A DNA stretch of 64,000 nucleotides from assembly GCA_011033025.1 (NCBI GenBank), contig WFMF01000071.1, forward strand, positions 372,001-436,000, written 5' to 3'. The DNA is from Beroe forskalii (lineage: Eukaryota > Ctenophora > Nuda > Beroida > Beroidae). The notes under the pieces were generated by a model. It was given only the letters and a program-made list of their open reading frames with translations, was not told the origin of the DNA and ran no database searches. This document shows positions 7,111 to 44,250 of the stretch, piece by piece (position 1 is the stretch's first letter; each line of letters starts with the position of its first letter). Both the position numbers and the translations under genes were made by a program.

Positions 7111-7413
7111 ATCAGCCTATATATTACATTCCTGGTTTAAAATTAATCTTTTATACCAATATAGATCACCTCGATCCTTTACTCAATGACTAACTGATGC
7201 CTTTTCGTTTCTCTGAATGTTGATAAGTCTATAGATAATACATTGATTACCATCTGACACTTATTCAAGTGAAAAAATTCTTACAAATGGTTTGAGAAGT
7301 CATGTAATTTTTGGCAAACTTTGGCAAATTTTGGCAAATTAATCCCTAAATTTAGGAGTTTGCCAAAAAAAGTGTTTGCCAAAGTTTGCCAAAGTTTGCC
7401 TTACCCCCGCCCC

Positions 7414-8290
7414 TATCCATAAATTTACTATTAAATGATAAAACTATATGTTCACGTTCCTTGATTTTCTCAGCCTCATTCACTTTGAATTTAGGTGAGA
7501 ATGTCCTACAAAATGATTCACAGATATTGTACAAAATTCCAGAATTAACACTAGCCAAATTAAATAGGGAGTCTAAATCTGTTAAGGAATATGATCTCAG
7601 AGTTTTAAATAAGGAATGGTCAAAATTAGTATTAGAGTCTTTGAAAAGAACGAGATTATCTGCAATCTCTTCTTTACTCCTATTCTTACAAGAGGCTCTC
7701 TTACTGCCTCTGCCACGTTTATAACGTTTGATAAAACCATTAAAATAGTTGACAGTAATACCTTGCGATATACTGCCAAATCCCTTCTTTTTATCATTAA
7801 GGCCTAAGGGATACGCTGTACCTAACCTGTCAATCCAGTAGTCCTCCAAACTACACAAATCATTCTTCACGTCGGTTGAAATGTCCTTATCGACGTAATC
7901 AATGATCTGGATAGTTGCTTCACAGAAGCAATGACCAGGAAGGTTGAAATGCTCATAGATAAATGTGGAGGCATTATTCTTCACACCCGATCTATGACCA
8001 TTCATACGCTTGTGAAGTGGCTGACTGGTTTCACCAACGTACTGTTTTTGACAAGAGGAACAGGTGATAAGATATATAACATTGGCGTTCTTACAGGAGA
8101 TATTAAGACTATCATGACAAAATATGAATTTATTATTAAATGTACTACTACAAAAGGTTTTACTAGTGACAAAGGACTTGCAGGTTAGACATCCCTTACT
8201 ATTACAGAGGAGGAAGTGGGAAGAAGTTACGCTATTGATGTCTAACCACTTTGCAAGATTTTTGTGATAGAATTTGTTGCTACGTTTAAG
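7414..8290 (-). pseudogene. Naiad-like Penelope element: N-terminal GIY-YIG nuclease half
   Basis: Open in one minus-strand frame from 8290 to the insertion junction. An N-terminal region FYHKNLAKWLDINSVTSSHF leads to Cys pairs (LLCNSKGCLTC, FIFCHD). Next is the GIY-YIG core with NVIYLITCSSCQKQYVGET, RMNGHRS and a conserved FNLPGHCF. The tail motif EDYWIDRLGTAYPLGLNDK follows. After it comes a basic linker (RYKRGRGSKRASCKNRSKEE) running to FNSKFMD, where the 4.09-kb element interrupts. The nuclease nicks target DNA for target-primed reverse transcription. An in-frame TGA lies at 8293-8291, just upstream. No certain start codon is visible; the first ATG at 8005 lies inside the nuclease core and cannot be the true start. 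Confidence 0.85.
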
Positions 8291-14095: not shown

Positions 14096-15039
14096 CGTTT
14101 CATCAGAAATATGATGCATATTCAGAAAATAGCGTGATTGAACTTGCGCTATAAGATTTGAACTCAAGGCACCCCCCCAGAGGCCCCCAGTGATTCAGTT
14201 ATTTCACTGGTATACCACCAGTGAGGCAAGAATTTCACGGGTCTACCCTGGTGCACAGAGAAATTAAGGTGTCATGCGGATGTCACGTGACTGACCAGGG
14301 ATTCCATGTTTTCACGGGTCTACCACCAGTGAGGCAAGAATTTCACGGGCCTAGCCTGGTGCGGCCAGAGATCATAGTGTCATGTGGATGTCATGCGGAT
14401 GTCACGTGACTGACCAGGGATTCAATGTTTTCACTGGTCTACCACCAGTGAGGCAAGAATTTCACGGGCCTAGCCTGATGTACGTTTCATTCTGTTTCAT
14501 ATTACCTACACTATGATATATCATTGTTTAGACACCCACAATCAAATTACTTCCGGTAATGTGGTACACACAGCCTTTCCCTGTGCACTTTACAGCAACA
14601 TATTACAGCGTATGAGCGTACCTACACACTACACAGTGGTCTGCGTGTAGCAGTGTGTGAATCATGGATTACATAGTATCAGTGCAACAGTGATCGACGG
14701 GCTCTTGGGACTGGGAACAAACACTGAAAGAGTGAACTGTTCTTGATTTCAAAAGCATGAAATTTGAAAATCGAAATACATCTTTCAAAGCTAGTGTTAG
14801 TAATAATTATGTGGATTACGTCTTAGAAACCATTTTATAATAGCCAAATGTCCTACTAGATCTATGATATTTTCCGGCCTTTGATTAACGTGGTCATGTG
14901 ATGGGTTTGTTAAACAATACATTTGTGGTATGAATTAAGAGGAGGTTTTATTATTACGAATGAAATTAAAATCGGAACTAATTATGATTGAAAAAATTCC
15001 AGAGATTTTCTCTATTTTTGTGCAAAGATCACACTTCTG

Positions 15040-15305
15040 GTACACATGACACACTCACGCTTACATGCTTACACAATACACTCCACGCTTACACACTGAG
15101 CACACTTACTAACATACTCGCACTTACACACTTACACACTCACGCTTACACACTCGCACTTACACACTTACACACTCACGCTTACACACTCGCAAGTTTA
15201 CACACTTACACACTCACGCTTACACATTTGCACTTACACACTTACACACTCACGCTTACACACTTACGCTTACAGGCTTACCTACACACTCGCACTTACA
15301 CTAAT
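15040..15305. repeat. Minisatellite TTACACACTCACGC, first tract
   Basis: Units of 12-14 bp (CTTACACACTCGCA and variants) in tandem. A related tract is at 16120-17010 and in the second element copy at 26700-27010. Open frames rich in Thr, Leu and His are artefacts of the period. Confidence 0.85.
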
Positions 15306-15311
15306 ACTAAA

Positions 15312-15780
15312 CGGAGGATAATCTACAAGAGATCCAAACAGAGTCCCAGCAAGGACCTCCCGCTGGGAGGTTCCTGTTGCCAGGGCTACTGTAGAGTGTA
15401 GATGGGAACGAATCCTGTACCTCCCCAGGAGGACCAATATGACGGGAGCACATTGGTGTTGACAACATGGTCTCGGGAAGAAACTTCCTGCCCAGTGATG
15501 GTATTTGGGGGTACCGTCGAGTCCCAACCAGGTTTGGGACTCGTGGTACCGGTCTCTTCTTCTCTCAGGCAGACTCAGAGTGGACAAGTTGTACTCACAG
15601 CGGGATTCAGTTTCTTGTGGTGGCAGTTTAGGGCTGCGTGGCCAGTCTGAAGTTGAGTGGCTATTCTCAAGTCCCATCTACCCATGCTAGCAAATCTGTT
15701 CCTCCTCATCATGCCGAACATTCTGGGAGGGTCACTGGTCAGCCTTGAACTCTTGTTGGAGCCGGTCCAGACCTCAAATG
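15312..15780. repeat. Hairpin-rich module between minisatellites
   Basis: The module includes a near-perfect palindrome at 15512-15552: GGTACCGTCGAGTCCCAA, then a short loop and the mirror TTTGGGACTCGTGGTACC. It also has an inverted pair around ACCTCCCGCTGGGAGGTTCC at 15356 and ACCTCCCCAGGAGG at 15420. The module recurs at 27011-27490 and, shortened, at 27880-28200. The long minus-strand frame (15677-15282) shows no known domain. Confidence 0.6.
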
Positions 15781-15799
15781 TCTTCCTCCTAATAGAGTA

Positions 15800-16125
15800 A
15801 TAGCCGTGTAGCAGACGTTACGCGGAATAGGAAGTAAGACACTGGTTGCGCTGTTGTTTTCATTGGCCGAACCAGCTTTCGCTCTGAGGTCGGCCAACTC
15901 GTTTCCCTCAAAACCGCTATGGGCCGGAATGAGTGTTACGTCATTGGACCAGCCCATTGTGTTGAGGGAGTTTTTTGCCCTGAGGGGCATTTTGATGTTG
16001 ATAATCGTTCTGTTAATCGCATGGATAGCAGATTTACTGTCACAGTTTATCAAGATTATTTTGTGCTTCAGTGCGTGTTCCTGTAGAATTTCGGCTGTTT
16101 TTGCGACTACAAAGACTTCTGCATG
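15800..16125 (-). pseudogene. RNase H domain fragment of a non-LTR retrotransposon
   Basis: The minus-strand frame retains the catalytic Glu region (HAEVFVVAKTAEIL), the third acidic site (INCDSKSAIHAINR) and the last one (IPAHSGFEGNELAD). These motifs match the RNase H domain of Jockey/I-type LINE polyproteins. The N-terminal beta strand with the first catalytic Asp is missing: the sequence passes straight into the CTTACACACT minisatellite at about 16127. It is a captured fragment, not a working enzyme. A second copy with frameshifts lies at 27500-27840. Confidence 0.7.
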
Positions 16126-17010
16126 GCACTTACACACTTCCACACTCGCGCTTACACACTCACGCTTACACACTCAGTACTCACGCTTACACACTTAATA
16201 ACACACTCGCGCTTACACACTTACACACTCACGCTTACACACTCGCGCTTACACACTTACATACTTTCGCTTACACACTTAACACACTCACGCTTACACA
16301 CTTACACACTCGCGCTTACACACTTACACACTCACACTTACACACTCGCGCTTACACACTTACACACTCACACTTACACACTCACGCTTACACGCTTGAA
16401 CACTCACGCTTACACACTTACACACTCGCGCTTAAACACTTTACACACTCACGCTTACACACTCACACTTACACATTTAACACAATCGCGCTTACACACT
16501 TTACACACTCAGGCTTACACACTCGCGCTTAAACACTTACATACTTTCGCTTACACACTTACACAAGCCACACTTACACACTCAGTACTCACGCTTACAC
16601 ACTTAACACCCTCGCGCTTACACTCTTACACACTCAGTACTCTTGCTTACAGTTTACACACTTAACACACCCGCGCTTATACACTCTTACACACTCAGTA
16701 CTCTTGCTTGCAGTTTACACACTTAACACACCCGCGCTTACACACTTACATACTTTCGCTTACACACTTACACAAGCCACACTCAGTGCTCATGCTTACA
16801 CACTTAACACCCTTGCGCTTACACACTTACACACTCAGTATTCTTGCTTACGCCTTACACACTTAACACACTCGTGCTAACACACTTACACACTCAGTAC
16901 TCTTGCTTATATACTTAACACACTCACGCTTACGTCATACTTTACACACTCAAGCTTACACTCGCGCTTACATACTTACATACTTAACACACTCACGCTT
17001 ACACACTTGT
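16120..17010. repeat. Minisatellite TTACACACTCGCGC, second tract
   Basis: About 65 variable units of 12-14 bp with the core CTTACACACT. Higher-order blocks of about 90 bp (CACTCAGTACTCTTGCTTAC and flanks) recur several times between 16620 and 16910. Confidence 0.85.
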
Positions 17011-18768
17011 GCCGGTTATCAGCGATCTCAACATTTATTATTTTTCATCCTTATTGGATTTAGGAAAGATCTCCTTTTTAGTTTGGAGCTTTATATGAAA
17101 TTCAGAACTTGACTGGAACGATTGAACTGATAGAGTGTGAAATTTGCGTACTTCTTATGTCAAATACCTTATTGGCCTTTATTTAGCCGGCCTTTTTTTA
17201 ACAGGCCTTTTTTAACCGGCCCTATGGACAAAAAATGGACCTGTTTTGAACCATTTTAACCGGCCCCTTGGACAAAAAATTTTCAAGCAGCTGCCAAACC
17301 AAGAAATTTAAGCTCAAAAAGAGCCATGAAAACCAATTTATACTCAAATTGCATCAAAACCTAAATTCTGGTCTGGTATCATCATTTAGGTCATTATCTA
17401 TGTTATATAATGACGGTTAAATGAATTTAATGATGCATAAGCCAAGCAATGAAAGTTTCATTCGGCCTAAATAATCTGGCCTTTAATTTAATCGGCCCCA
17501 TTTTAACCGGCCATTTATTTAACCGGTCCTTTGGACAAAAATCTCAACGTCGTTTTTGTCCTTAAGTGCCGGTTAAATTATAAGGGCCAATAAGGTACGC
17601 CATACCGTATAACTATTATTGGCTTATTGGCAACCGAATTAGCAAATTCATATTCAATTTAGGATTATACATGAACCGCCTTCAATTTAACCAAGTTATC
17701 TCAATATATCTCATCATGATGATGCACGATGATATACCTACCTAAGACACCATTATATTATGTACGTGTTGTTATGCCAGTTCTAGGTCATGAATTTTGG
17801 CCTAAAACTCACGTAATTTAGAATTCATCTCATCATCTATCTTCTCTGCATATACTGACCAGTGACCAGGCTATAGGTCTAACTGTCTAAGGACATTTTA
17901 ATATGGTATGTAACATGAAATTCACATAATTATGACTTAAGCTTGAAAAATAGTGGGTAGAAAAGGGATTTTTTCGTCAATTTAATCATAAATACATAAA
18001 TAGGACGAGTAGAGTGATTAAGTACGAACATCTTAAGGTGTTCAATTGTCACAATCAAAAACGTAGTGGGTTCAAGAACGTGACATTTTGATAGCTACAA
18101 TTGAAGATCTCCGTAACCATTCCGCTAGTTCAAAATTCTTTGAAATATTGTTCGATTTTCAAATTTCGTGATTTTGAAATCAAGATCGGTTCGCTCTTCC
18201 AGTGTTTGTTCCCACTTCCCAGTCCCAAGAGCTCGTTACTCGATCACTGTTGCACTGATGCAATGTACTCCATGATTCACACACGCAAATCAGTGTGTAT
18301 TGTGTACGCTGTAGGTAATATGTATCTGTAAAGTGCACAGAGAAAGGCTGTGTGTACCACATTACCGGAAGTAATTTGATCGTTGGTGTGTAAACAATGA
18401 TATGTCATAGTGTAGGTAATATGAAACAGAATGAAACGTACATCAGGCTAGGCCCGTGAAATTCTTGCCTCACTGGTGGTAGACCAGTGAAAACATTGAA
18501 TCCCGGGTCAGTCACGTGACATCCGCATGACATCCACATGACACTATGATCTCTGGCCGCACCAGGCTAGGCCCGTGAAATTCTTGCCTCACTGGTGGTA
18601 GACCCGTGAAAACATTGAATCCCTGGTCAGTCACGTGACATCCGCATGACACCTTAATTTCTCTGTGCACCAGGGTAGACCCGTGAAATTCTTGCCTCAC
18701 TGGTGGTAGACCAGTGCAACTGTGGCATTTTTAAATCACTGGGGGCCTCTGGGGGGGTGCCTAACTCA

Positions 18769-19389
18769 CATAGGAGAGAACACTGTGATGCCATATTGGA
18801 CCCTATGGGAAAGTGGACACCTAGCTGGTTGCCTTCCAGTATAGTTGGTATTAAATTTTGGTACTTTTCATTTCAAGTTTAGATGTTATTAGATTATTAA
18901 GATTAAATATGAGTCAGGTACATCATTATTTTTTAAAAGTTCCCCAAGCGGAACAAAACTTTAATAAATACTGCTCAATTGAGGAAAATGTTTCATGCCA
19001 ATCTTCATGATGTCGAAATTAGATATCTATGAAATTATCAAGATTATCATAATTATTTAGTTGCATATCGCGTTCTGGCATGTAGGTTTTAGATTAGATT
19101 CTCAGAAATTTGAAAGGTTAAGATCATGATAATATCATCATGGAGTTGCTATTTGTATGAAGTTGAAACTTACTTTTCTTAGCTGTTCTGACGTAAACAC
19201 AGTTACCCCCGATGTATTGGATTCCGATCTCGAATGTTTCGGGTATTATTCTTCCAGATTTATCGTACTAGTCTAGGCTAATATTGCCAATGACCCGAGA
19301 CTACCACCTAGCAAGCTGAAAATTGGGAGTTATGTCCCTTATGGTGTCCTTGTTCCCCAAGAAAAAGTCTACCAACCGATCTTTGTCGG
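18769..19389. other. No recognised gene
   Basis: AT-rich unique-looking sequence between the first long-TIR element and the 160-bp satellite. No coding signal was seen. Confidence 0.45.
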
Positions 19390-21050
19390 AAGTGGTCAAA
19401 ACGGGCCACGCCCTTTTTTGACCGTGGGAATTTCTGGGAAAAATTGAAATTTCAAGATTTTGAGGTCTACAAACAAGATTATACACTAAACTCACTTATT
19501 TTGGCACGAGAAAAACGATTTGAGTGTCCGTTTTTGGATATGGCCATCATGGAAGCCGATAATGGGCCACGCCCTTATTGACCGTGGGAATTTCTGGGAA
19601 AAATTGAAATTTCAAGATTTTGAGCTCTACAAACAAGATTATACACTAAACCAGGGGCGTAGCCAGAATTTTCAGAAGGGGGAGGCGGCTGCTGGCGTGG
19701 AGCGCCAGCAGAGAATTCTTGACAGTGCCGGCGCGAAGCGCCGGCTTTAGCGGGTTTAGGGGGCGCAGCCCCCAGCGGGGTCCAGGGGCAGAACCCCTGG
19801 CGGGGGGTTTAGGGGGGCGGAGCCCCCCGAGAAAATTTTTGAAAAAAGAAGGTGTTTTAAAGCATTTTCCAGCAAAATTGGCAGCAAAATAGGCAGCAAA
19901 ATAAATGATTTGATTGCTAAGTTATATACACAGAATTGGTAGTCAAAATTATGTTTTGGTAGATAATAGCTTGTGAATGTTTAAAAATTTTTCCAATTCA
20001 TAATATTAAACCAACTGATAACCGAATAAATAGCTGAAAAAAGCATCTTAAACTGATTAGACTGCGAATGAGATATTATATGGGTGATGGGCATTTCACC
20101 GGATTAAGTCGCAAATTTACCATCTATGTTTACTAATAATCCCAGCTAATAAAATGTGATGTTTCAACCTCTAAATGGAATCAAATCACATTGATAGATC
20201 GTCATATGATTTTGCTTATCAACAGAACAAGTTGCACCTCAACCTCTTTTAAGTTGGAACCGAAATATTTTACCTACCGAGCAGTGATATAATTTTACAA
20301 TACTAGTTTCGCCCCAGATAAATGTAAGAAACAGAACTGTTCTGCACTGATGCTCACACGTATTTAAACAAACTTCACTCATCATTGGACGAACTTAATT
20401 GAAAACCTAGTAGTTAATTAAATTTAAATATTTTCTGCGTTGAAAAGCAGATTTATAATTATAAAATTGGGCAAAATTAGTTATTTTTTCTACTCATCTG
20501 AAAAGGGGGAGGCGACCGCCTCTGTCGCCTCCCCCCTGGCTACGCCCCTGCACTAAACCCACTTATTTTGGCACGAGAAAAACGATTTGAGTGTCCATTT
20601 TTGGATATGGGCATCATGGAAGCCGATAATGGGCCACGCCGTTATTGACCGTGGGAACTTCTGGGAAAAATTGAAATTTCAAGATTTTGAGCTCTACAAA
20701 CAAGATTATACACTAAACCCACTTATTTTGGCACGAGAAAAACGATGCAGGTGTCCATTTTTCGATATGGGCATCATGGAAGCCGATTATGGGCCACGCC
20801 TTTTTTGACCGTGGGAATTTTGGCGAAAAATTTAATCGTAAGACAATGATCTTTACAAGCAAGATTATACACTGAACCAATTTATTTTGGCACGAGAAAA
20901 ACGAAGCAAGTGTCCATTTTTGTATATGACCATCATGGAAGACGATAATGGGCCACGCCCTTTTTGACCGTGGGAATTTCCGCAAAAATTTTTGAGCTTT
21001 TAATTCAAGATTATATACTAAAACCACTTATTGTTGGACGAGATGAACGA
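19390..21050. repeat. 160-bp satellite, about five units, split by a hAT element
   Basis: Units contain TTATTTTGGCACGAGAAAAA, then GGGCCACGCC and ACCGTGGGAATTTCTGGG. GGGCCACGCC recurs at about 160-bp spacing near 19403, 19564, 20631, 20791 and 20949. A hAT element interrupts the array at 19652-20550. Divergence rises towards both edges. Confidence 0.85.
19652..20550. mobile_element. Non-autonomous hAT element, 899 bp
   Basis: Both ends carry CAGGGGCGTAGCCAG (inverted), a typical hAT terminus. They are flanked by a perfect 8-bp duplication CACTAAAC (19644-19651 and 20551-20558). A subterminal region holds a run of small GC hairpins: GGGGGCGCAGCCCCC, CAGGGGCAGAACCCCTG and GGGGGGCGGAGCCCCCC. 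The interior is AT-rich with no transposase frame. The insertion lies inside a satellite unit and postdates the array. Confidence 0.92.
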
Positions 21051-22599
21051 TTCAAGTATTTATTATTTGAGCCATGACCATAGTGAAAGCTGATATAATA
21101 GGTTGCGCACTTTTGACTGTTTGTTAGACACCGATTTGTCATTGGAAGTGTTGATATACCATGTAGTCTTATTTTATGTATCCTTGCAAACTCTACTACA
21201 GGCTGACAGCTGAAAATTCTTCAAACTCAAAACACCAGTTCGTCACTCTTGTACTATCAACTTGTCACTCGAATATGTGGTGGACAACATACGATATAAT
21301 AGGTTAGTTTACCTAAACTATGTCCACTCTTCTGCTGAGTAACAGTCATGGAAAGTGGAAGAGAAATTTATGGTCGGGCAAAAGAGATTTCGTTCATATT
21401 GCCAAAACAACCAGTACAACACTTGCGAAATCAACAGCCCGAAACTAGCAAGACGGCCATCCGCCATTGGGACAATATATCAGTCCATTGCCTGACCTAT
21501 TGATAGAGTGATCTTCATATTCATCACAACTGAAAGTTGGGGGTCAAGATACATGTTGGGTAATAAAATGTTGGAGTGCCTATTGCCTATACTATTGGTG
21601 CAAGAAAGAAGAACAGTAAAGGAGAGTGTATCCATCTATCAAAGAATCAATGCCGACTCAACCTCATGAACCTGGTATTGATGTATTGGGCATAAGGCGT
21701 TGTGAGGTCCAGTGAGGTCATCTTATCTGCTTTAGGCTCAGTAAATTGGCCAAGGTCCCATCAACTGGCCGGTTTGATTAATGTGACCTTGGCAAATGAC
21801 GACCATACCACTTTAGTAGACTTAAGGTTCGCCGACTTCCCTTTGAAAGTTTCAAGAAGATCACGCTAGAAGACACGAGAGATAACACTAGAGGATCAAC
21901 ATTAGAGGAACAATGTCGAAGGACCTGTTTCGTGGCGTCAACAAGATCAACAGCTTCCATTCAGGACCTTCCTGCGACTTGTCTTCTACTTCGGTGCACA
22001 ATCCATGACGAACCTGGAAGTTGTTGCCCTCACTGGACTCAGTGACAAGTGTGTGAGAGAGTGGAATCTCCGCCCTATCTCCTTCTTCACTTATCCATCT
22101 ATGATGGCAAAGTTCAGATCCAGACCTGCCCCTCCCATCTGCTTCACCTCCACCCACCACTCCTTCTCATCTCATTCCATCAGTCTTACATCCGCTAACA
22201 CTGCTCCTAACATAGACCCTGCTTTACAGACCCTGCTATCCCTGCTCCAACTGATCCTAAACTTGCTGCTGTACAACTCTCTCTCATACAGTATACACGG
22301 ATCCAGATGATTAAGGCTTGCAGACTATGTATAATGTCTCAAGTAGCAATAAACCGCGATTGCTAGCGATGACCCACAAGGCTGGCAGAGAGGTGAAAAT
22401 CGGAAGGCAGTATAGTAACAGACTTCACGGGCACAGAGATCCAGAACTCAGTACTTCGCTCCAATTCGAAAAGCGTCAAACATTATGACGTAGAAGTATG
22501 TAATAACATGCTTGCATATTAGTCAGATATGATTCGAGAACCACAGATGGATTACCATCAATTTCCTTCGGTGCAGGTCTGACCCTTTGGCTTCCCCTG
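21051..22599. other. No recognised gene
   Basis: Open frames of up to about 100 codons on both strands show no domain or splice pattern. Part of 21900-22310 is open on both strands but compositionally simple. Confidence 0.45.
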
Positions 22600-25085
22600 T
22601 AGAGCTGTGATGTCAAAGTTGCCATTGATTAAAATTTTCAAAAAAGGAAAATTTTCACTGTTTTTTATTGTGGCGCTTTTTAATTTTATGAAAAAAATCT
22701 TAAAAAATTGGCGGGAAGGCTTGTGTCCAAAACCCAAAATTAATTTTGGGAATCTTGGGTTTTGTAAACAAATATGTTATAGTGGGGTAAAGAAACAGAA
22801 TGAAAAAACATCAGGTTGGGCCGTGAAATTTTCCTCCTGGTGGTAGACCAGTAAAAACATTGAACCCCGGGTCGTCATTTAAATAAAATGACATCCACAT
22901 TATGATCCTGGCCGATCAGGTTGGAAATTTTTTTGCCTCACTGGTAATTAAAAACCCTTAATTCCCGGGTGGTTAACTGTTTTGATAATTTTTTTTGCCC
23001 CTAGCCCCGTAATTTTTCCTCTTTTAACCGGGCAATTTTTTAAATCGGGGGGGTTCGGGGGGTGCCTTTTGAAAATTTCTAAAGTTGGGTTTTTGGGGTA
23101 TTTAAAAGATTTTTTCCCCAGAGCACAAAATTACCCAAAAATTTTTGAGCATCATTCTTTTCAAAGAGAACATAAAAGTTTTCCCTTTTAAATTTTAAAG
23201 GAACCCAAAAAAAACCCGGAAAAAAACCACCTTTTTTTTTTCCAAATTTTCTGGCCCTTGGTTCGGGCTTCCATCTTTTCTTTGATTAAAAGGGGGGAAC
23301 TTTTTGGGGTTTGCCCGGTTAACGGTCTTTTTCCTTTGGTAGCTTGTTAGGAGAGGGAATAGAACTTTTTCCCCAAAATTTTTTTTTGGTTTAAAAATTT
23401 TGCCAGTGAAAATTTTTTTCCAAAGGCCCTTATCGGGGACATTTTTTAGAGGCTATTTTAAAATAAAGGAATATTTGGTTTGCCCTTTTCGGCCAATTTC
23501 ATCACCCGGGGTTAAAATTTTAATTTAGGGTTTTGGGGGGCTGATATATTTTTTTGCGGGGAAAAATTTGGGTGGTGAAATTTTTTTTTTCCCCTGTAAG
23601 ATTAGTTTCCGGGTTTCCCAATTTTCCCTCTAAAGTTTTCTGAAAAGGCTTTAGATGCAGTTTCTTTATCCTTTACTTTGAAAAACTTTCACAAAAAAAA
23701 CAGAATGATCCTAAAAATGTTTGTCTTTGGTTTTCCCAAAACCTTTTTTTAAACCCCCTTGATTTGCAAACAGCAGGGAAAACCCTTTTTAATTAAAGAA
23801 AACTTTTACCAAATGCATCTTTATCTAATGGGAAAAAAAAAGAACCCATTATAAAACAACACTCAGGGGGAGGGATTCATTTTTTGGTCTTCATTTTTTA
23901 TATGGGGGGAAATGGTTTTTTTGGCGGGTGGGCCAAAAATTCAGTTCAACTCCCAATGTGGGCCCTTCTAAAATTAAAACAGTAATTTTGGGGAGGGGGC
24001 GGGATAAAACCCATAAAAGCCTGTAAAAGATTTCGGGACGGGGGATGGACGGTGCTTAATCAGAAAAATAATACACAATGTTTTTTATCAAAAAAAATTT
24101 TTTCAGTTTTGGGGTTTTCCTCGTTGGTTAATTTAATATGTTTGTTTTTTAAGTTTAAAAGCCCTTATATACTTATATAATTGCATCAAAAAAAGCCCCG
24201 GAAAAAATTCTTAAGGTTATGTTTGAATCTGTTTCTGAGATAAACCAAATTTATAATGTGATTAAAACAGCCACCCGAATTGGGGAAAAATTGGGGGTTT
24301 TACATCTAAATTGTGTCTAGGTTCGATTTAGTCATTTTGGGGGACCCAAAACACCCCGCTGCAGGCAAAATTTTTTATTTTTTGTCCCAAATTTCCGCCT
24401 TTGAGATCAATTTGGGATTAAAAAAAAATACGGTTAAAAAAAATACTGTAAAAAATTTTGGAAAGTTTTACATCTGGGGAAGGTCTAGGATCAACCCTAG
24501 TCATAAATTGGTTTAAAAAAAGTTAAAGGTTTGTTTTAAAGGTTTGTCCGGGGAATCTGCCTCTGAGACCCAATTTGGTCAATGTATAATGTGATTAAAA
24601 CATCCAGCCCACTGTAGGAAAAAATTGGGAACCCTTTTTACATCTGAAATTGTTTTCAGGATAAATTTAGGACATTATTGGTTCATAACAGCCCGCCCCC
24701 GGCGAAAAAATTTTTTAAGGGTTTTGCACCTGGGAAACTGCCTCTGAAATCAAAACTTGTAAAAGTACATTTTCACCCACTTCCCCCCCCTTTAACAACC
24801 TCCAAAACCAAATGACTTCCCTCACCCTTTTCCCCCCTTTTTTATTTAATTGCCCCCACACTTTCCCCATCATAATTAAACCCCCCCCACTTTACGAAAC
24901 CCCCCCAAAACTTACTTTCCCCCCCATTCCCCCCCTTATAAATCTCCCCCCCTTGATTCCCTCCCCCTTAGTCATCACACCATCCCCTCAGCCCTTTCCC
25001 CGCCCCCCACTTCCCCCCACCTTTTTTGATCACTTTTACTTCCCTTTTTGGTTTTCCCCCCAAATTTTAAAGACTTTTTGGGTTT
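22600..25085. other. Corrupted duplicate of 30.0-32.9 kb, probable assembly or consensus artefact
   Basis: The order of landmarks matches the region right of the second long-TIR element: the element end with GGTAGACCAGT (22845), the GGGGTGCC terminus (about 23060), ACAGAATGATCCT from the PHD-finger ORF (23701), TTTAATATG and the CATCAAAA repeats (24130-24700), then the polypyrimidine tract (24780-25070). Bases are replaced by extensions of neighbouring homopolymers (long runs of A, T, C and G), and about 350 bp are lost. At 22770 it shares the variant GTTATAGTG with copy 2, not copy 1, so its source is the 30-kb locus including the unique flank. This looks like a poorly called second haplotype or duplicated contig rather than biological decay. 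Confidence 0.75.
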
Positions 25086-25280
25086 AAAATTTTACGGCCC
25101 TGGTGAACCCCACTGACCTACTGACCCCAGGTGAACCCCTACTTACCCCCTACTGACCCCCTGGTGAACCCCTACTGACCCCTGCTGACCCCCTGGTGAA
25201 CCCCTACTTACCCCCTGATGAACCCCTACTGACCCCCTATTGACCCGACCCCCTGGTGAACCCCTACTGACCACTTCCTG
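25086..25280. repeat. Tandem repeat CCCCTACTGACCCCCTGGTGAA
   Basis: Variable units of 18-22 bp alternate CTACTGACCCC and CTGGTGAACCC. No open frame of interest. Confidence 0.8.
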
Positions 25281-25828
25281 ATCATAAATCTAGCATGTAT
25301 CATGGCTGTTTTAAAAGCATCTAGAATAACACTTCGCATTATTTGGTCAATTTCCACTCGATCGAAGCACCCTAAACGCACGCTCAAACCATAAACAAGT
25401 CAGTTATATTTGTTATGTTCGTTAATATGTTGTTCAAGACAGTCAAAAAAGAAATAAATCAGGACAGTCAGACTCATTATATATAGTAAGAAATAAGATA
25501 AGATAAAATAAAATACTGTATATTTTTGGGATGTAAGACGAACTCACGGACAGTATCCATGTCTGTGAGACCAGAATCCATGTCTGTGAGACCACACATC
25601 GCTATAACATAACACATGTTGCTCTTAATGACTTGAAACTTTGATGAAAATTGCTCAATAAACGGTGGATTTATGTGATTTCACAAAAGTGTCAACAAGC
25701 GCCGTGCTTGTTGCGTACATGATGGCGTGTAGACCTTTTGAATACTATATAGAACTTTATGCCCTTAAACTCACTATTAAGATGATAATGCTTTCAGAGT
25801 TTCATTAGAACTCACTCTCTCTCTATTC
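25281..25828. other. No recognised gene
   Basis: AT-rich sequence. A short duplicated CATGTCTGTGAGACCA occurs at 25558 and 25579. Nothing else was recognised. Confidence 0.45.
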
Positions 25829-26699
25829 TATTTGAGGCACCCCCCCAGAGGCTCCCAGTGATTCAGTTATTTCACTGGTATACCACCAGTGAGGCAAGAA
25901 TTTCACGGGCTACCCTGGTGCACAGAGAAATTAAGGTGTCATGCGGATGTCACGTGACTGACCAGGGATTCCATGTTTTCACGGGTCTACCACCAGTGAG
26001 GCAAGAATTTCACGGGCCTAGCCTGGTGCGGCCAGAGATCATAGTGTCATGTGGATGTCATGTGGATGTCACGTGACTGACCAGGGATTCAATGTTTTCA
26101 CTGGTCTACCACCAGTGAGGCAAGAATTTCACGGGCCTAGCCTGATGTACGTTTCATTCTGTTTCATATTACCTACACTATGATATATCATTGTTTACAC
26201 ACCCACAATCAAATTACTTCCGGTAATGTGGTACACACACAGCCTTTCCCTGTGCACTTTACAGCTACATATTACAGCGTATGAGCGTACCTACACTACA
26301 CAGTGGTCTGCTTGTAGCAGAGTGTGAATCATGGATTACATAGTATCAGTGCAACAGTGATCGACGAGCTCTTGGGACTGGGAACAAACACTGAAAGAGT
26401 GAACTGTTCTTGATTTCAAAGCATGAAATTTGAAAAATGAAATACATCTTTCAAAGCTAGTGTTAGTAATAATTATGTGGATTACGTCTTAGAAACCATT
26501 TTATAATAGCCAAATGTCCTACTAGATCTATGATATTTTCCGGCCTTTGATTAACGTGGTCATGTGATGGGTTTGTTAAACAATACATTAGTGGTATGAA
26601 TTAAGAGGAGGTTTTATTATGACGAATGAAATTAAAATCGGAACTAATTATGATTGAAAAAATTCCAGAGTTTTTCTCTATTTTTGTGCAAAGATCACA

Positions 26700-27010
26700 C
26701 TTCTGGTACACACTTACACATGACACACTCACGCTTACATGCTTACACAATACACTCCACGCTTACACACTGAGCACACTTACTCACTAACACAATCGCA
26801 CTTACACACTTACACACCACGCTTACACACTCGCACTTACACACTTACACACTCACGCTTACACATTTGCACTTACACACTTACACACTCACGCTTACAC
26901 ACTCGCACTTACACACTTACACACTCACGCTTACACATTTGCACTTACACACTTACACACTCACGCTTACACACTTAAACACAGGCTTACCTACACACTC
27001 GCACTAACAC
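26700..27010. repeat. Minisatellite TTACACACTCACGC in copy 2
   Basis: Tandem 12-14-bp units homologous to 15040-15305 of copy 1, but with different unit order. The array has turned over since the copies separated. Confidence 0.85.
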
Positions 27011-27499
27011 TAATACTAAACGGAGGATAATCTACAAGAGATCCAAACAGAGTCCCCAGCACGGGACCTCCTGCTGGGAGGTCCCTGTTGCCAGGGCTAC
27101 AGCTGTGGATGGGAACGAATCCCGTACCTCCCCAGGAGGACCAATATGACGGGAGCTCATTGGTGTTGACATTTGACAACATGGTCTCGGGAAGAAACTT
27201 CCTGCCCAGTGATGGCATTTGGGGGTACCGTCGAGTCCCAACCAGGTTTGGGACTCGTGGCACCGGTCTCTTCTTCTCTCAGGCAGACTCAGAGTGGACA
27301 AGTTGTACTCACAGCGGGATTCAGTTTCTTGTGGTGGCAGTTTAGGGCTGCGTGGCCAGTCTGAAGTTGAGTGGCTATTCTCAAGTCCCATTTACCCATG
27401 CTAGCAAATCTGTTCCTCCACATCATGCCGAACATTCTGGGAGGGTCACTGGTCAGCCTTGAACTCTTGTTGGAGCCGGTCCAGACCTCAAATGTCTTC

Positions 27500-27840
27500 C
27501 TCCTAATAGAGTAATAGCCGCGTAGCAGACGTTACGTGGAATAGGAAGTAAGATACTGGTTGCGCTGTTGTTTTTATTGGCCGAACCAGCTTTCGCTCTG
27601 AGATCGGCCAACTTGTTTCCCTCAAAACCGCTATGGGCCGGAATGAGTGTATTACGTCATTGGACCAGCCCATTGTGTTGAGGGAGTTTTGGCCCTGAGG
27701 GCATTTTGATGTTGATAATCGTTCTGTTAATCGCATGGATAGCAGATTTACTGTCACAGTTTATCAAGATTATTTTGTGCTTCAGTGCGTGTTCCTGTAG
27801 AATTTCGGCTGTTTTTGCGACTACAAAGACTTCTGCATGG
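27500..27840 (-). pseudogene. RNase H fragment, copy 2, frameshifted
   Basis: Homologous to 15800-16125. The motifs HAEVFVVAKTAEIL and INCDSKSAIHAINR are kept, but small indels (for example near 27655 and 27695) break the frame before the NELAD region. It is non-functional. Confidence 0.7.
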
Positions 27841-30719
27841 CACTTACACACTTCCACACTCACGCTTACATACTACTACTAAACGGGGGATGGATCTACA
27901 AGAGATCCAATCAGAGTCCCCGGCACGGGACCTCCTGCTCGGAGGTCCCGGTTGCCAGGGCTACTGTGGATGGGAACAAGTCCCGTACCTCCCCAGGAGG
28001 ACCAATATGCCCGGAGCACATTGGTGTTGACAACATGGTTACGGGAAGAGACTTCCTGCCCAGTGTTGGTGTTGCGGGGTACCGTCGAGTCCCAACCAGG
28101 ATTGGGACTCATGGTACCCTTTGGTGTGGATCTTCCCGTCGCAAGTCCAGGAGGATGCCATGGTTAGTTAGTTTCAGGATCGTTATCGGCTTTTCTAGGT
28201 TCCAGTCGCCCAGTCCTATGAGCATAGCTAACGATCCTGTTCATCTTGAACTTGTCGAAGATGTCGGTACCTGAGCAGTAGTAGGTACTGAGATACTCCG
28301 CCCTAATACTGCCCACACTTACACACTCAGTACTCTTGCTTATATACTTAACACACTCACGCTTACGTCATACTTTACACACTCAAGCTTACACTCGCGC
28401 TTACATACTCGCGCTTACAGGATCCTGAGATGCATGCGGCTGTAACACTGTTCCCTCAACTTGTGCGCACAAGTGAAGCAGTGTGGGTCAGGGACGTTGT
28501 GGGCTCCGAGCACCCCGACCCTGCGGCTGCCTTGGTTTATTGTTATGGAGATGAAGCGAAGTGGCGGAAAGGCAACAGAGCTGATAACAGACTGAAGTGG
28601 CCTTGATAGGGCTGGTGGCATCACAGGCTTTCACACGGTGGGTGACATTTCTTGCAGTGCCCTGACTCCTAACCATTGATGGTTCTTAATATGCGCCGCC
28701 AGAAATGGCGAGGAAGTATTGGGAGTAGGGTGCGGTGTGTAGGTCATAACAACACTTAACACACTTTTGATATTTATTATTATTACTTAACACACTCACG
28801 CTTACACACTTGTGCCGGTTATCAGCGATCTCAACATTTATTATTTTTCATCCTTATTGGATTTAGGAAAGATCTCCTTTTTAGTTTGGAGCTTTATATG
28901 AAATTCAGAACTTGACTGGAACGATTGAACTGATAGAGTGTGAAATTTGCGTACTTCTTATGTCAAATACCTTATTGGCCTTTTATTTAGCCGGCCTTTT
29001 TTTAACAGGCCCTTTTTTTTAACCGGCCCTATGGACAAAAAACGGACCCTTTTTGAACCATTTCAACCAGCCCCTTGGACAAAAATTTTCAAGCAATTGC
29101 CAAACCAAGAAATTTTTGCCCAAAAAGAGCCATGAAAACCAATTTATACTCGGCAAATTGCATCAAAAACCTAAATTCCGGTCTGTTATCATCATTTAGG
29201 TCACTATCTGTGTCATATAATGACGGTTAAATGAATTTAATAATGCATAAGCCAAGCAATGAAAGTTTCATTCGGCCTAAATAATCTGGCCTTTAATTCA
29301 ATCGGCCCCATTTTAACCGGCCATTTATTTAACCGGTCCTTTGGACAAAAATCTCAACGTCGTTTTTGTCCTTAAGGGCCGGTTAAATTATAAGGGCCAA
29401 TAAGGTACGCCATACCGTATAACTATTATTGGCTTATTGGCAACCGAATTGGCAAATTCATAGTCAATTTAGGATTATACATGAACCGTCTTCAATTTAA
29501 CCAAGTTATCTCAATATCTCATCATGATGATGCACGATGATATACCTACCTAAGACACCATTATATTATGTAGGTGTTGTTATGCCAGTTCTAGGTTAAA
29601 ATTTTGGCCTAAAACTCACATGTAATTTAGAATTCATCTCATCATCTATCTTCTCTGCATATACTGACCAGTGACCAGGCTATAGCTCTAACTGTCTAAG
29701 GACATTTTAATATGGTATGTAACATGAAATTCACATAATTATGACTTGAGCTTGAAAAATAGTGGGTAGAAAGGGATTTTTCGTCAATTTAATCATAAAT
29801 AGGACGAGTAGAGTGATTAGGTACGAACATCTTAAGGTGTTCAATTGTCACAATCAAAAACGTAGTGGGTTCAAGAACATGACGTTTTGATAGCTACAAT
29901 TGAAGATCTCCGTAACCATTCCGCTAGTTCAAAATTCTTTGAAATATTGTTCGATTTTCAAATTTCGTGATTTGAAATCAAGATCGGTTCGCTCTTCCAG
30001 TGTTTGTTCCCACTTCCCAGTCCCAAGAGCTCGTCGATCACTGTTGCACTGATGCAATGTACTCCATGATTCACACACGCAAATCACTGTGTATTGTGTA
30101 CGCTGTAATATGTATCTGTAAAGTGCACGGGGAAAGGCTGTGTGTACCACATTACCGGAAGTAATTTGATCGTTGGTGTGTAAACAATGATATGTTATAG
30201 TGTGGTAATATGAAACAGAATGAAACGTACATCAGGCTAGGCCCGTGAAATTCTTGCCTCACTGGTGGTAGACCAGTGAAAACATTGAATCCCGGGTCAG
30301 TCACGTGACATCCGCATGACATCCACATGACACTATGATCTCTGGCCGCATCAGGCTAGGCCCGTGAAATTCTTGCCTCACTGGTGGTAGACCCGTGAAA
30401 ACATTGAATCCCTGGTCAGTCACGTGACATCCGCATGACACCTTAATTTCTCTGTGCACCAGGGTAGACCCGTGAAATTCTTGCCTCACTGGTGGTAGAC
30501 CAGTGCAACTGTGGCATTTTTAAATCACTGGGGGCCTCTGGGGGGGTGCCTTATTTGTAAATTTTCCTAAAGCACCTAATAGGTATTTGGGTGATATCGG
30601 ATAAATAGATAATTCACCATGTCATGTCTAGCACGTAATGTGATCCAAAATTTCGAGCATCAGTCATTTCATGACAGCGAAACATACACAGATTTCAATC
30701 ATTAATTTCCATTTTCAAG

Positions 30720-31929: not shown

Positions 31930-32590
31930 ATGTGTTGTGTTGTAAGTTTAAAAGTCATATATACTTATATAATTGCATCAAAACAGCCCGCCGCAGGCAA
32001 AAATTCTTAAGGTTATGTGCCCGAATCTGCTTCTGAGATCAATTTGGTCAATGTATAATGTGATTAAAACAGCCAGCCGTACTGTAGGCAAAAATTGTGA
32101 AAGTTTTACATCTGAGATTGTGTCTAGGGTCGATTTAGTCATATAATTGGATCAAAACAGCCCGCTGCAGGCGAAAATTTTTTAGGTTTTGTACCTGAAT
32201 CTGCCTTTGAGATCAATTTGGTGATTAAAACAGCCAGCCATACTGATTAAAACAGCCAGCCATACTGTAGGCAAAAATTGTGAAAGTTTTACATCTGAGA
32301 TAGGTCTAGGATCAATCTAGTCATATAATTGGATCAAAACAGCCCGCCGCAGGCGAAATTTTTAAGGTTTGTACCTGAATCTGCCTCTGAGATCAATTTG
32401 GTCAATGTATAATGTGATTAAAACATCCAGCGACCAGCTGTAGGTAAAAATTGTGAACGTTTTACATCTGAAATTGTGTCTAGGATCAATTTAGTGACAT
32501 TATTGGTTCATAACAGCCCGCCGCAGGCGAAAATTTTTTAAGGGTTTTGCACCTGAATCTGCCTCTGAAATCAATCTTGTAATGTACATT
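31930..32590. repeat. Tandem repeat of about 175 bp
   Basis: Units pair CATCAAAACAGCCCGCCGCAGG with ATTAAAACAGCCAGCCATACTG half-units, each followed by GAATCTGCCTCTGAGATCAA or ACATCTGAGATTGTGTCTAG. About three and a half units are visible. Confidence 0.8.
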
Positions 32591-40296: not shown

Positions 40297-42880
40297 GTGA
40301 CGTTGCCTTATTGACACCACTCTATAATTCTTGACACCACTCTTTATCCTTGACAGCAAACCTTATCCCTGACACCACTCCAAAATCCTTGACACCACTC
40401 CAACCTCCTTGACATCACTCATTATCCTTGACATCAATCCTTATCATTGACATCACTCTTTATCCTTGACACCACTCCACAATCCTTGACATCACTCTAC
40501 AATCCTTGATACCACTCCAAATCCTTGACATCACTCTACATCTACAATCCTTGACACCACTCCAAATCCTTGACACCACTCTTTTTCCTTGACATCACTC
40601 CTTATCCTTGACTCTTTATCCTTGACACCATTCCACGATACTTGACACCACTTCTTATCCTTGACATCACTCCTTATCCTTGACGGTACTCTTCATCGTT
40701 GACACCACTCCACAATCCTTGACATCACTCTACAATCCTTGACACCACTCCAAATCCTTGACATCACTCTACAATCCTTGACACCACTCAAACTCCTTGA
40801 CATCACTCGTTATCCTTGACATCACTCTATTGTCCTTGACTCTTATCCTTGACACCATTCCACGATCCTTGACACCACTTCTTATCCTTGACATCAATCC
40901 TTATCCTTGACATCACTCCTTATCCTTGACATCACTCCCTATCCTTGACATTACTCTTCATGCTTGACACCAATCCACAATCCCTGACGTCACTCTGCAA
41001 TCCTTGACACCACTCCATACTCCTTGACATCACTATTTATCCTTGACATTACTCCTTATCCTTGACTCTTTATCCTTGACACCACTCCACAATCCTTGAC
41101 ATCACTCTACAATCCTTGATACCACTCCAAATCCTTGACATCACTCTACATCTACAATCCTTGAAACCACTCCAAATCCTTGACGCCACTCTTTTTCCTT
41201 GACATCACTCCTTATCCTTGACTCTTTATCCTTGACACCATTCCACGATACTTTACACCACTTCTTATCCTTGACATCACTCCTTATCCTTGACGGTACT
41301 CTTCATCCTTGACACCACTCCACAATCCTTGACATCACTCTACAATCCTTGACACCACTCCAAATCCTTGACATCACTCTACAATCCTTGACACCACTCC
41401 AAATCCTTGACATCACTCGTTATCCTTGACATCACTCCTTATCCTTGACTCTTTATCCTTGACACCATTCCACGATACTTGACACCACTTCTTATCCTTG
41501 ACATCACTCCTTATCCTTGACGGTACTCTTCATCCTTGACACCACTCCACAATCCTTGACATCACTCTTTATCCTTGACACCAATCCACAATCCTTGACA
41601 TCACTCTACAATCCTTGACACCACTCCATACTCCTTGACATCACTCTTTATCCTTGACATCACTCCTTATCCTTGACTCTTTATCCTTGACACCATTCCA
41701 CGATCCTTGACACCACTTCTTATCCTTGACATCAATCTTTATCCTTGACATCACTCCTTATCCTTGACATCACTCCCTATCCTTGACATCACTCTACAAT
41801 CCTTGACACCACTCCAAATCCTTGACATCACTCTACAATCCTTGACACCACTCCAAATCCTTGACATCACTCGTTATCCTTGACATCACTCCTTATCCTT
41901 GACTCTTTATCCTTGACACCACTCCACAATCCTTGACATCACTCTACAATCCTTGACACCACTCCAAATCCTTGACATCACTCTTTATCCTTGACATCAC
42001 TCCTTAACCTTTACTCTTTATCCTTGACACCATTCCACGATCCTTGACACCACTTCTTATCCTTAACATCACTCCTTATCCTTGACATCACTCCTTATCC
42101 TTGACATCACTCCTTATCCTTGACTCTCTATCCTTGACACTATTCCACGATCCTTGACATCACTCTACAATCCTTGACACCACTCCAAATCCTTGACATC
42201 ACTCTACAATCCTTGACACCACTTCTTATCCTTGACATCAATCTTTATCCTTGACATCACTCCTTATCCTTGACATCACTCCCTATCCTTGACATTACTC
42301 TTCATGCTTGACACCAATCCACAATCCCTGACGTCACTCTGCAATCCTTGACACCACTCCATAATCCTTGACATCACTCTACAATCCTTGACACCAATCC
42401 AAATCCTTGACATCTTTCTTTATCCTTGACATCACTCCTTAACCTTTACTCTTTATCCTTGACACCATTCCTGATCCTTGAGATCACTTCTTATCCTTGA
42501 CATCACTCCTTATCCTTGACATCACTCCTTATCCTTGACATCACTCCTTATCCTTGCCTCTCTATCCTTGACAATATTCCACGATCCTTGACATCACTCC
42601 TTATCTTTGACATCACTCCTTATCCTTGACATCACTCCTTATCCTTGACATCACTCCTTATCCTTGACATCACTTCTCATCCTTGACACCAATCCACAAT
42701 CCTTGACGTCACTCTACAATCCTTAACACCACTCCTTATCCTTGACTCTTTATCCTTGACATCACTCCTTATCCTTGACATCACTCTTTATCCTTGACAC
42801 CACTCCACAATCCTTGACATTACTCCAAAGACCTTGAAATCTCTCGTTATCCGTGACATCACTCTTTATACTTGACACCA
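40297..42880. repeat. 19-bp satellite, consensus ATCCTTGACATCACTCCTT
   Basis: About 130 units. A higher-order block of about 610 bp is evident: 40471-40700 recurs at 41081-41305 with the same unit variants, including the aberrant ACATCTACAATCC junction. Several units read TGACGTCA (near 40986, 42331 and 42708), a perfect CRE palindrome; most others read TGACATCA. Confidence 0.9.
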
Positions 42881-42902
42881 CTGGGGCTATGGCTGCCTTT
42901 GA

Positions 42903-43550
42903 GCCTAATATCCCAATAGCCCAGGGGAGCCCAACAACCCAATAGCTCCAGGGGAGCCCAACAACCCAATAGCCCAGGGGAGCCCAACAACCCAATAGCC
43001 CAGGGGAGCCCCAACAACCCAATAGCTCCAGGGGAGCCCAATAACCCAATAGCTCCAGGGGAGCCCAACAACCCAATAGCTCCAGGGGAGCCCAACAACC
43101 CAATAGCCCAGGAGCCCAACAACCCAATAGCTCCAGGGAGCCCAATAACCCAATAGCTCCAGGGAGCCCAACAACCCAATAGCTCCAGGGAGCCCAACAA
43201 CCCAATAGCTCCAGGGGAGCCCAATAACCCAATAGCTCCAGGGGAGCCCAACAACCCAATAGCTCAGGGGAGCCCAACAACCCAATAGCTCCAGGGAGCC
43301 CAACAACCCAATAGCTCCAGGGGAGCCCAATAACCCAATAGCTCCAGGGGAGCCCAACAACCCAATAACTCCAGGGGAGCCCAACAACCCAATAGCTCCA
43401 GGGGAGCCCAACAACCCAATAGCTCCAGGAGAGCCCAACAACCCAATAGCTCCAGGGGAGCCCAACAACCCAATAGCTTCATGTGAGCCCATCAACCCAA
43501 TAGCTCCAGGGGAGCCCAGCAACCCAATAGCTCCATGTGAGCCATCAACC
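42903..43550. repeat. 27-bp satellite of AGCTCCAGGGGAGCCCAACA-type units, block 1
   Basis: About 24 units of 26-27 bp (the unit continues with ACCCAAT). On the minus strand all three frames stay open over hundreds of bases and read repeats such as ELLGCWAPL, GAIGLLGSP and SYWVVGLPW. Frequent 26/27-bp indels move between frames, which argues against a selected protein. Confidence 0.85.
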
Positions 43551-44250
43551 CAAGCAAATCACCATGGTCATTATTGGCAACACCCCACTTTTGTAAGTGG
43601 GGTGGGTGGAGAATAACAGTGTTATCCTCCTCCCAAGAACCATGGCATGGGAGCCCAACAACCCAATAGCTCCAGGGGAGCCCAACAACCCAATAGCTCC
43701 AGGAGCCCAACAACCCAATAGCTCCAGGGGAGCCCAACAATCCAATAGCTCCAAGGGAGCCCAACAACCCAATAGCCCAAGGGAGCCCAACAACCCAATA
43801 GCTCCAAGGAGCCCAACAACCCAATAGCCCCAAGGGAGCCCAACAACCCAATAGCTCCAGGGTAGCCCAACAACCCAATAGCTACAGGGAATTCCAACAA
43901 ACCAATAGCTCCAGGAGAGCCCAACAACCCAAAAGCTCCATGTGAGCCCATCAACCAAATAGCTCCAGGGGAGCCCAGCAACCCAATAGCCCGTGAGCCC
44001 ATCAACCCAAGCAAATCACCATGGTCATTGGCTATTGCAACACCCCACTCTTTGTAAGTGGGTGGTGGAGAATAACAGTGTTATCCTCCCCCTCCCCAAG
44101 AACCATGGGCATGGGAGCCCAACAACCCAATAGCTCCATGTGAGCCCAAAAACATTATAGCCCATCAAACCAAATAGCCCATATCCATTTAGCCTAACAA
44201 CTCAACAGCGCCCTATGTGAGCCAAATAGTTCCATATGAGCTCAACAACC
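43551..44250. repeat. 27-bp satellite block 2 with two copies of a spacer
   Basis: A spacer of about 105 bp (CAAATCACCATGGTCATT, then GAGAATAACAGTGTTATCCT, a hairpin) lies at 43553-43650 and again at 44010-44115. About 13 satellite units sit between the copies, with decayed units after 44116. A weaker third spacer trace is at 44330-44390. Confidence 0.8.

Follow-up and report, generated by a model that had tools for sequence, protein, structure and literature searches.

Two insertions of a dispersed, non-autonomous transposon family with long terminal inverted repeats and 6-bp target duplications in Beroe forskalii

Results

Two copies of a long-TIR element in the window

The window is a stretch of 64,000 nucleotides from Beroe forskalii (contig C814, positions 372001–436000), and searches were run across the 216-Mb genome of this ctenophore. 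It carries two copies, A and B, of an element with long terminal inverted repeats (TIRs); their features are collected in Table 1. The measured lengths bear out the 4.6 and 4.7 kb of the original prediction, which had been made from the sequence of the window. The inverted repeats, then put at about 0.6 kb, are 615–625 bp long and 88–89% identical (89.1% in A, 88.4% in B), and the two copies are flanked by different perfect 6-bp duplications, AACTCA and TATTTG, as had been stated. The TIRs contain tandem units (119 bp × 2.6 in copy A; 108 bp × 2.5–2.6 in the copies on C421 and C625).

Table 1. Features of copies A and B (positions in the window)
Feature	Position	Strand	Remark
Target duplication, left of copy A	14161–14166	none	AACTCA
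Copy A	14167–18762	+	4596 bp; left end alpha, right end beta
Copy A alpha TIR	14167–14790	+	624 bp; ~2.6 tandem units of ~108–119 bp
Copy A alpha-specific block	14196–14204	+	9 bp
Palindrome-like motif CACTGGTATACCACCAGTG, first unit in copy A alpha TIR	14205–14223	+	
Palindrome-like motif CACTGGTATACCACCAGTG, other copy A alpha-TIR units	14313–14331, 14432–14450		
Copy A minisatellite array	15049–15301	+	periods 14/22/36 bp; CTTACACACTCACG type
Hairpin module, copy A	15510–15550	+	z −4.25
RNase H-like remnant in copy A	15868–16074	-	coordinates worked out from the list of open reading frames and the Pfam search
Copy A second minisatellite array	16127–16933	+	
Copy A beta TIR	18138–18762	-	625 bp
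Palindrome-like motif CACTGGTATACCACCAGTG, copy A beta-TIR units	18471–18489, 18590–18608, 18698–18716		
Copy A beta-specific block	18717–18733	-	17 bp
Target duplication, right of copy A	18763–18768	none	AACTCA
Target duplication, left of copy B	25829–25834	none	TATTTG
Copy B	25835–30551	+	4717 bp; left end alpha, right end beta
Copy B alpha TIR	25835–26456	+	622 bp
Copy B minisatellite array	26707–26982	+	
Hairpin module, copy B	27224–27264, 28077–28119		
Copy B beta TIR	29937–30551	-	615 bp
Target duplication, right of copy B	30552–30557	none	TATTTG

A dispersed family with two subfamilies

We searched the genome with the TIR, as the original prediction had proposed. A 436-bp TIR query gave at least 47 matches and a TIR query from a diverged copy at least 50 (both lower bounds, scoring being limited to 40 candidates). 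The 22-bp terminus, allowing up to 3 mismatches and no indels, matched 48 times in the genome and 0 times in the reversed control. An exact terminus pattern with a variable C-run gave 63 matches versus 5 in the reversed control. We accepted 54 of these, which agree with the 22-bp terminus search or with TIR matches (C35 and C43 by the terminus alone), and dropped 9. No terminus was matched in viral contigs.

For 19 elements, 1250–8905 bp in size, the sequence was read at each terminus, and all 38 of their ends begin AGRCAY. The aligned TIR length is 301–700 bp in 12 elements, including H1013a, whose right terminus is missing. The pairs fall into two subfamilies, nine of AGGCAC/T type and ten of AGACAC type; C601, counted with the AGGCAC type, has AGACAT/AGGCAT ends. 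Divergence between the subfamilies is ~23% over the outer 330 bp of the TIR (9 and 2 elements compared). Neither terminus search returned an element above 8.9 kb bounded by two termini, although more diverged ends would escape them. The long autonomous element sharing the TIR that had been proposed was thus not seen among the terminus pairs. C814:632577, considered as a possible long copy, was rejected; 1.7 kb of its interior matches that of A and B.

The following loci stand outside the 19 pairs: C1013:156980, which has lost its right terminus; C358:1496960 and C247:638577, of which one end was read; C358:427530 and C469, which are fragments; C200, where the TIR matches but a terminus is lacking; and the single-ended C493, C439, C581, C580, C603, C381, C890, C249 (two), C35, C43, C44:186794, C457:158705, C457:163765 and C814:632577.

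Copies are clustered on a few contigs (C814, C1013, C457 and C358). Proximity of the nearest kin was not significant: it lay on the same contig for 6 of 18 copies, a value reached in 1337 of 20000 permutations. Four copies lie within 250 kb on C814. Their beta TIRs differ by 0–0.6%; the family is genuine and includes recent copies.

Target duplications, target preference and related empty sites

All 19 pairs whose two termini are intact and were read carry a perfect 6-bp target duplication; by arithmetic, a chance match has a probability of about 3e-4 per copy. Every copy has its own duplication and flanks; the one 6-mer that occurs twice, TAAAAA, does so on separate stretches of C1013. At the outer target positions, T in position 1 or A in position 6 accounts for 24 of 38 (p 2.4e-5; assumed background 0.30), and at positions 2 and 5 A or T accounts for 34 of 38 (p 6.5e-5; assumed background 0.60).

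We compared the joined flanks of 11 elements with all loci retrieved. A related empty site for copy B was found in L048, with 81% identity over 391 bp of flank and a single TATTTG. For the C625 element, a neighbouring repeat unit is a related empty site (89% identity, single GAGGAA). C1013b is a weaker case, inserted within a tandem repeat whose other units cross the site with indels. The remaining eight of the 11 elements showed no such site. These results confirm that A and B are independent insertions, as had been predicted, and place them in a dispersed family. Copies lacking 6-bp duplications and a segmental duplication, the outcomes named beforehand as contrary to that prediction, were looked for and neither was found.

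A 174-bp tandem repeat at 31967–32586 of the window is related to the repeat that hosts the C1013b insertion.

Each element pairs two different ends

The ends are alike for the first ~29 bp and then separate into two types, distinguished by a block at about bp 30–46. Alpha ends read, for example, CAATATTTT or CTTTATTTT. Beta ends, such as TCAAAATGCCACAGTTG or TCAAATTGCCACAGTTG, have 8 more bases in the block. All 19 pairs consist of one alpha and one beta end. Between alpha and beta TIRs (11 elements), divergence is 52% at bp 26–50, and every other bin as far as bp 300 gives 0.7–4%; where the comparison ends, the final bins (301 and 326) give 12% and 62%. The new feature is a TIR homogenised within elements except for one block with two forms, of which every pair has one each.

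For the AGGCAC type, mean alpha–beta divergence is 3.1% within elements versus 7.8% between elements. This similarity, together with the 23% gap between subfamilies, indicates that the arms underwent homogenisation after the subfamilies separated, and that the block did not. Between subfamilies, the outer 50 bp of the beta end are 11–14% diverged and its 12 inner bins 16–31%.

The TIRs also contain the internal palindromes that had been described. The motif itself stands: CACTGGTNTACCACCAGTG has 13 matches with up to 3 mismatches in the window, versus 0.05 expected, and 12 of them lie within the four TIRs of A and B, three per TIR. The remaining one is a single weak match (3 mismatches) at 22835–22853 on the minus strand. 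A conserved hairpin is not supported. Two palindromes were folded, one with a clear result (z −5.3) and one with a weak result (z −2.0; 11 of 200 shuffles as good), and covariation across the ends gave no support. One pair showed a two-sided change and four pairs were broken in some ends, so the palindrome was rejected as a conserved structure. A slide of +3 scored higher for covariation (0.190 versus 0.052), but not for paired cells.

Interior and coding capacity

The cargo is as originally described, namely minisatellites, a hairpin module and a scrap of RNase H, with no transposase reading frame seen. The hairpin module folds with z −2.9 to −4.7 across its three copies. The RNase H remnant of copy A scores 21.6 bits against Pfam RNase_H (E 2.6e-4), short of the 25.8-bit cut-off, and is perhaps derived from a captured non-LTR retrotransposon. 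Interiors common to A, B and C are 95–98% identical in the aligned blocks among those listed, and AGGCAC-type elements have the minisatellite arrays in common at lower identity. Other, unrelated high-copy repeats are nested inside some elements: C44 carries one as an insert of 1.26 kb, and in C421 they make up two blocks. A stretch of ~100 bp in copy A, at about 14907–15026, has 78–83% matches to sequence that does not belong to the family on 11 further contigs, and may be another short dispersed repeat.

Stop-to-stop open reading frames (ORFs) from 12 elements, 7 partial loci and the three largest copies (8.9, 7.8 and 6.1 kb) include none that resembles a transposase. In the 11 pairs whose interiors were read completely, a transposase-like ORF was not seen; the interiors of the other 8 of 19 are unread, C457b among them being read for 0.9 kb only. 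Pfam searches with ten selected ORFs gave no match above cut-off; besides RNase_H, the sub-cut-off matches were coiled-coil, low-complexity or without evident meaning. Rfam gave no match within the window.

Polintons in the same genome

The genome holds Polintons. We obtained seven PolB matches, on C669, C913, C346, C364, C422 and C818, and 150 rve matches that include frames of ~350–390 aa, some near PolB. Neither terminus search placed a family terminus on any of these six contigs. The Polinton copy on C913 (1199582–1216162; 16.6 kb) has PolB and integrase matches and ~220-bp inverted ends beginning AGTAGATATATAATG, and its flanks carry no matching duplication. A related Polinton end pair on C257 (231207–242666) has the flanks CAGGGT/CAGGTT, an imperfect 6-bp match. 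Within this one local lineage, which the end comparison covers, the four ends share one sequence for roughly their first 70 bp, which is unlike the family ends.

TCACGTGA motifs are present in both family and Polinton TIRs, and the C913 TIRs hold several CACGTGA motifs. CACGTG motifs were considered as a link to Polintons and dropped after a spacing control. Pairs of TCACGTGA 90–118 bp apart number 825 genome-wide versus 298 in the reversed control, and because such pairs are common the motif was not used. The spacing in the Polinton TIRs is 34–62 bp, outside the range of this control.

Other repeats and ORFs in the window

A GIY-YIG ORF lies at 7355–8290 on the minus strand (Pfam, 29.1 bits). 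Another minus-strand ORF, at 2237–2962, resembles a reverse transcriptase, had no Pfam match at E 0.01, and bears a resemblance to Penelope-like elements. The two ORFs flank ~3.5 kb of 11/21-bp minisatellites, with 10-bp repeats of the GTTTGCCAAA type at both edges. Long minisatellite arrays with strong GC skew occupy 40311–42882 (19/39/227-bp periods) and 42901–44010 (27-bp).

Discussion

The family has inverted ends, a duplication of fixed length, dispersed copies and no transposase in the copies read, which together mark a non-autonomous TIR DNA transposon. The mobile, non-autonomous long-TIR lineage of the original prediction is thus upheld by the duplications and the related empty sites. 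A and B are very probably members of such a family, presumably moved in trans by a DDE-type enzyme with a 6-bp stagger. Since no autonomous partner was found, we infer mobilisation in trans. A recombinase supplied in this way, most likely of the DDE class, would bind the tandemly repeated TIR and insert the element by its AG..CT termini at a 6-bp stagger in the target, with a preference for TWNNWA sites. The occurrence of one alpha and one beta end in every pair suggests that it requires two different ends, and we take the block to reflect selection for keeping them distinct.

Several observations weigh against this interpretation. No partner appeared in the terminus searches, in which unpaired ends were not followed outward and 8 of 19 interiors were unread. 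None of the ten ORFs tested against Pfam came from the 6.1-kb copy, which was assessed by visual inspection. At the alpha end, the outer 50 bp are 17% and 28% diverged between subfamilies and the inner bins 14–46%; the outer part is not clearly better conserved, so constraint is visible at the beta end only. The polarity could come partly from common descent, and inheritance of the block without selection is not excluded.

As to the enzyme that moves the family, a Polinton-type integrase is a leading but unproven candidate, less likely than not, and another transposase is somewhat likelier. That the family is moved by a different cut-and-paste transposase, perhaps undescribed or lost, with a 6-bp stagger and AG..CT ends, seems to us about an even chance. 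It would agree with the persistence of two end types in TIRs that are homogenised elsewhere, with the absence of any Polinton seen with family ends, and with the presence in each TIR of several tandem units, a feature also of foldback-like elements (PMC4079207). No such transposase was found, but genes of the hAT, P, MuDR and Dada kinds were not searched for, and the partner could be missing from the assembly or be located at one of the unread ends.

Descent from a Polinton/Maverick, with a Polinton-type integrase acting in trans and perhaps copying by the protein-primed polymerase (a Polinton satellite), is possible but falls short of probable. The AG..CT ends, TIRs of ~300–700 aligned bp and 6-bp duplications fit, as the original prediction had argued, and vertebrate Mavericks also have 6-bp duplications and TIRs of 46–1447 bp (PMC8097293). 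Polintons with PolB, and rve frames of ~350–390 aa, occur in the genome. IS3EU and GingerRoot share the 6-bp duplication but differ from the family in their termini, TA..TA or TG..CA (PMC10045372). The terminal motif does not fit. The compared Polinton TIR starts AGTAGATATATAATG and not AGRCAYCCCCC, and the vertebrate end motifs, (AG)3 or (AGT)2 (PMC8097293), differ from the AGRCAY of all family ends. The Repbase rule for non-autonomous elements asks for equal duplication length and at most one mismatch in the first 11 bp (PMC4455052); AGRCAYCCCCC against the local AGTAGATATAT departs from it, a comparison made with this one lineage and not with Repbase. No two family termini bound an element of 10–25 kb, the shared TCACGTGA motifs are common genome-wide, and the integrase-bearing Polinton partner originally envisaged finds no match in the compared lineage, whose termini differ. 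The asymmetric family ends, set against the four identical local Polinton ends, would also argue against Polinton-style self-synthesis.

It is possible, though less likely than not, that the family represents an undescribed DDE superfamily (AG..CT, 6-bp TWNNWA) pairing two functionally different ends, with the block held by selection against homogenisation, or else a satellite hijacking a Polinton integrase. Segmental duplication, gene conversion or an assembly artefact, which the four C814 copies with their near-identical beta TIRs might bring to mind, is very improbable and was rejected because each copy has its own 6-bp duplication and flanks and related empty sites exist.

If two-ended polarity is required, the family would be a natural eukaryotic test case for left/right discrimination by a transposase inside long inverted repeats. 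It also offers a clean probe for a 6-bp-stagger recombinase, and it exemplifies the spread of minisatellite arrays through transposition.

Comparison with known systems

Among the titles and abstract openings listed in a literature search, with Repbase not covered, there was no description of this family, and a search on non-autonomous or defective Polintons or Mavericks gave no papers. Further literature for comparison is PMC2836005, PMC2871265, PMC8504770 and PMC6431247. Like Polintons/Mavericks, the family has AG..CT termini, TIRs of hundreds of bp and 6-bp target duplications. Unlike them, the copies read have no PolB or integrase. The family elements measure 1.25–8.9 kb, whereas intact vertebrate Mavericks measure 12.7–24.6 kb (PMC8097293). 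The terminal motif and TIR differ from those of the local Polinton lineage compared (C913 and C257), whose ends are symmetric while those of the family are asymmetric. Dada transposons, and hAT transposons with 6-bp duplications, are further kinds, to be told apart by transposase type and termini. The target duplication of the foldback element Galileo is 7 bp. That of Tetris, a foldback element with tandem-repeat TIRs, is 8–10 bp (PMC4079207), and the 6 bp of the family differ from both. Galileo and Tetris resemble the family in their long TIRs, which contain tandem repeats, in having non-autonomous copies and in their link to tandem-repeat arrays.

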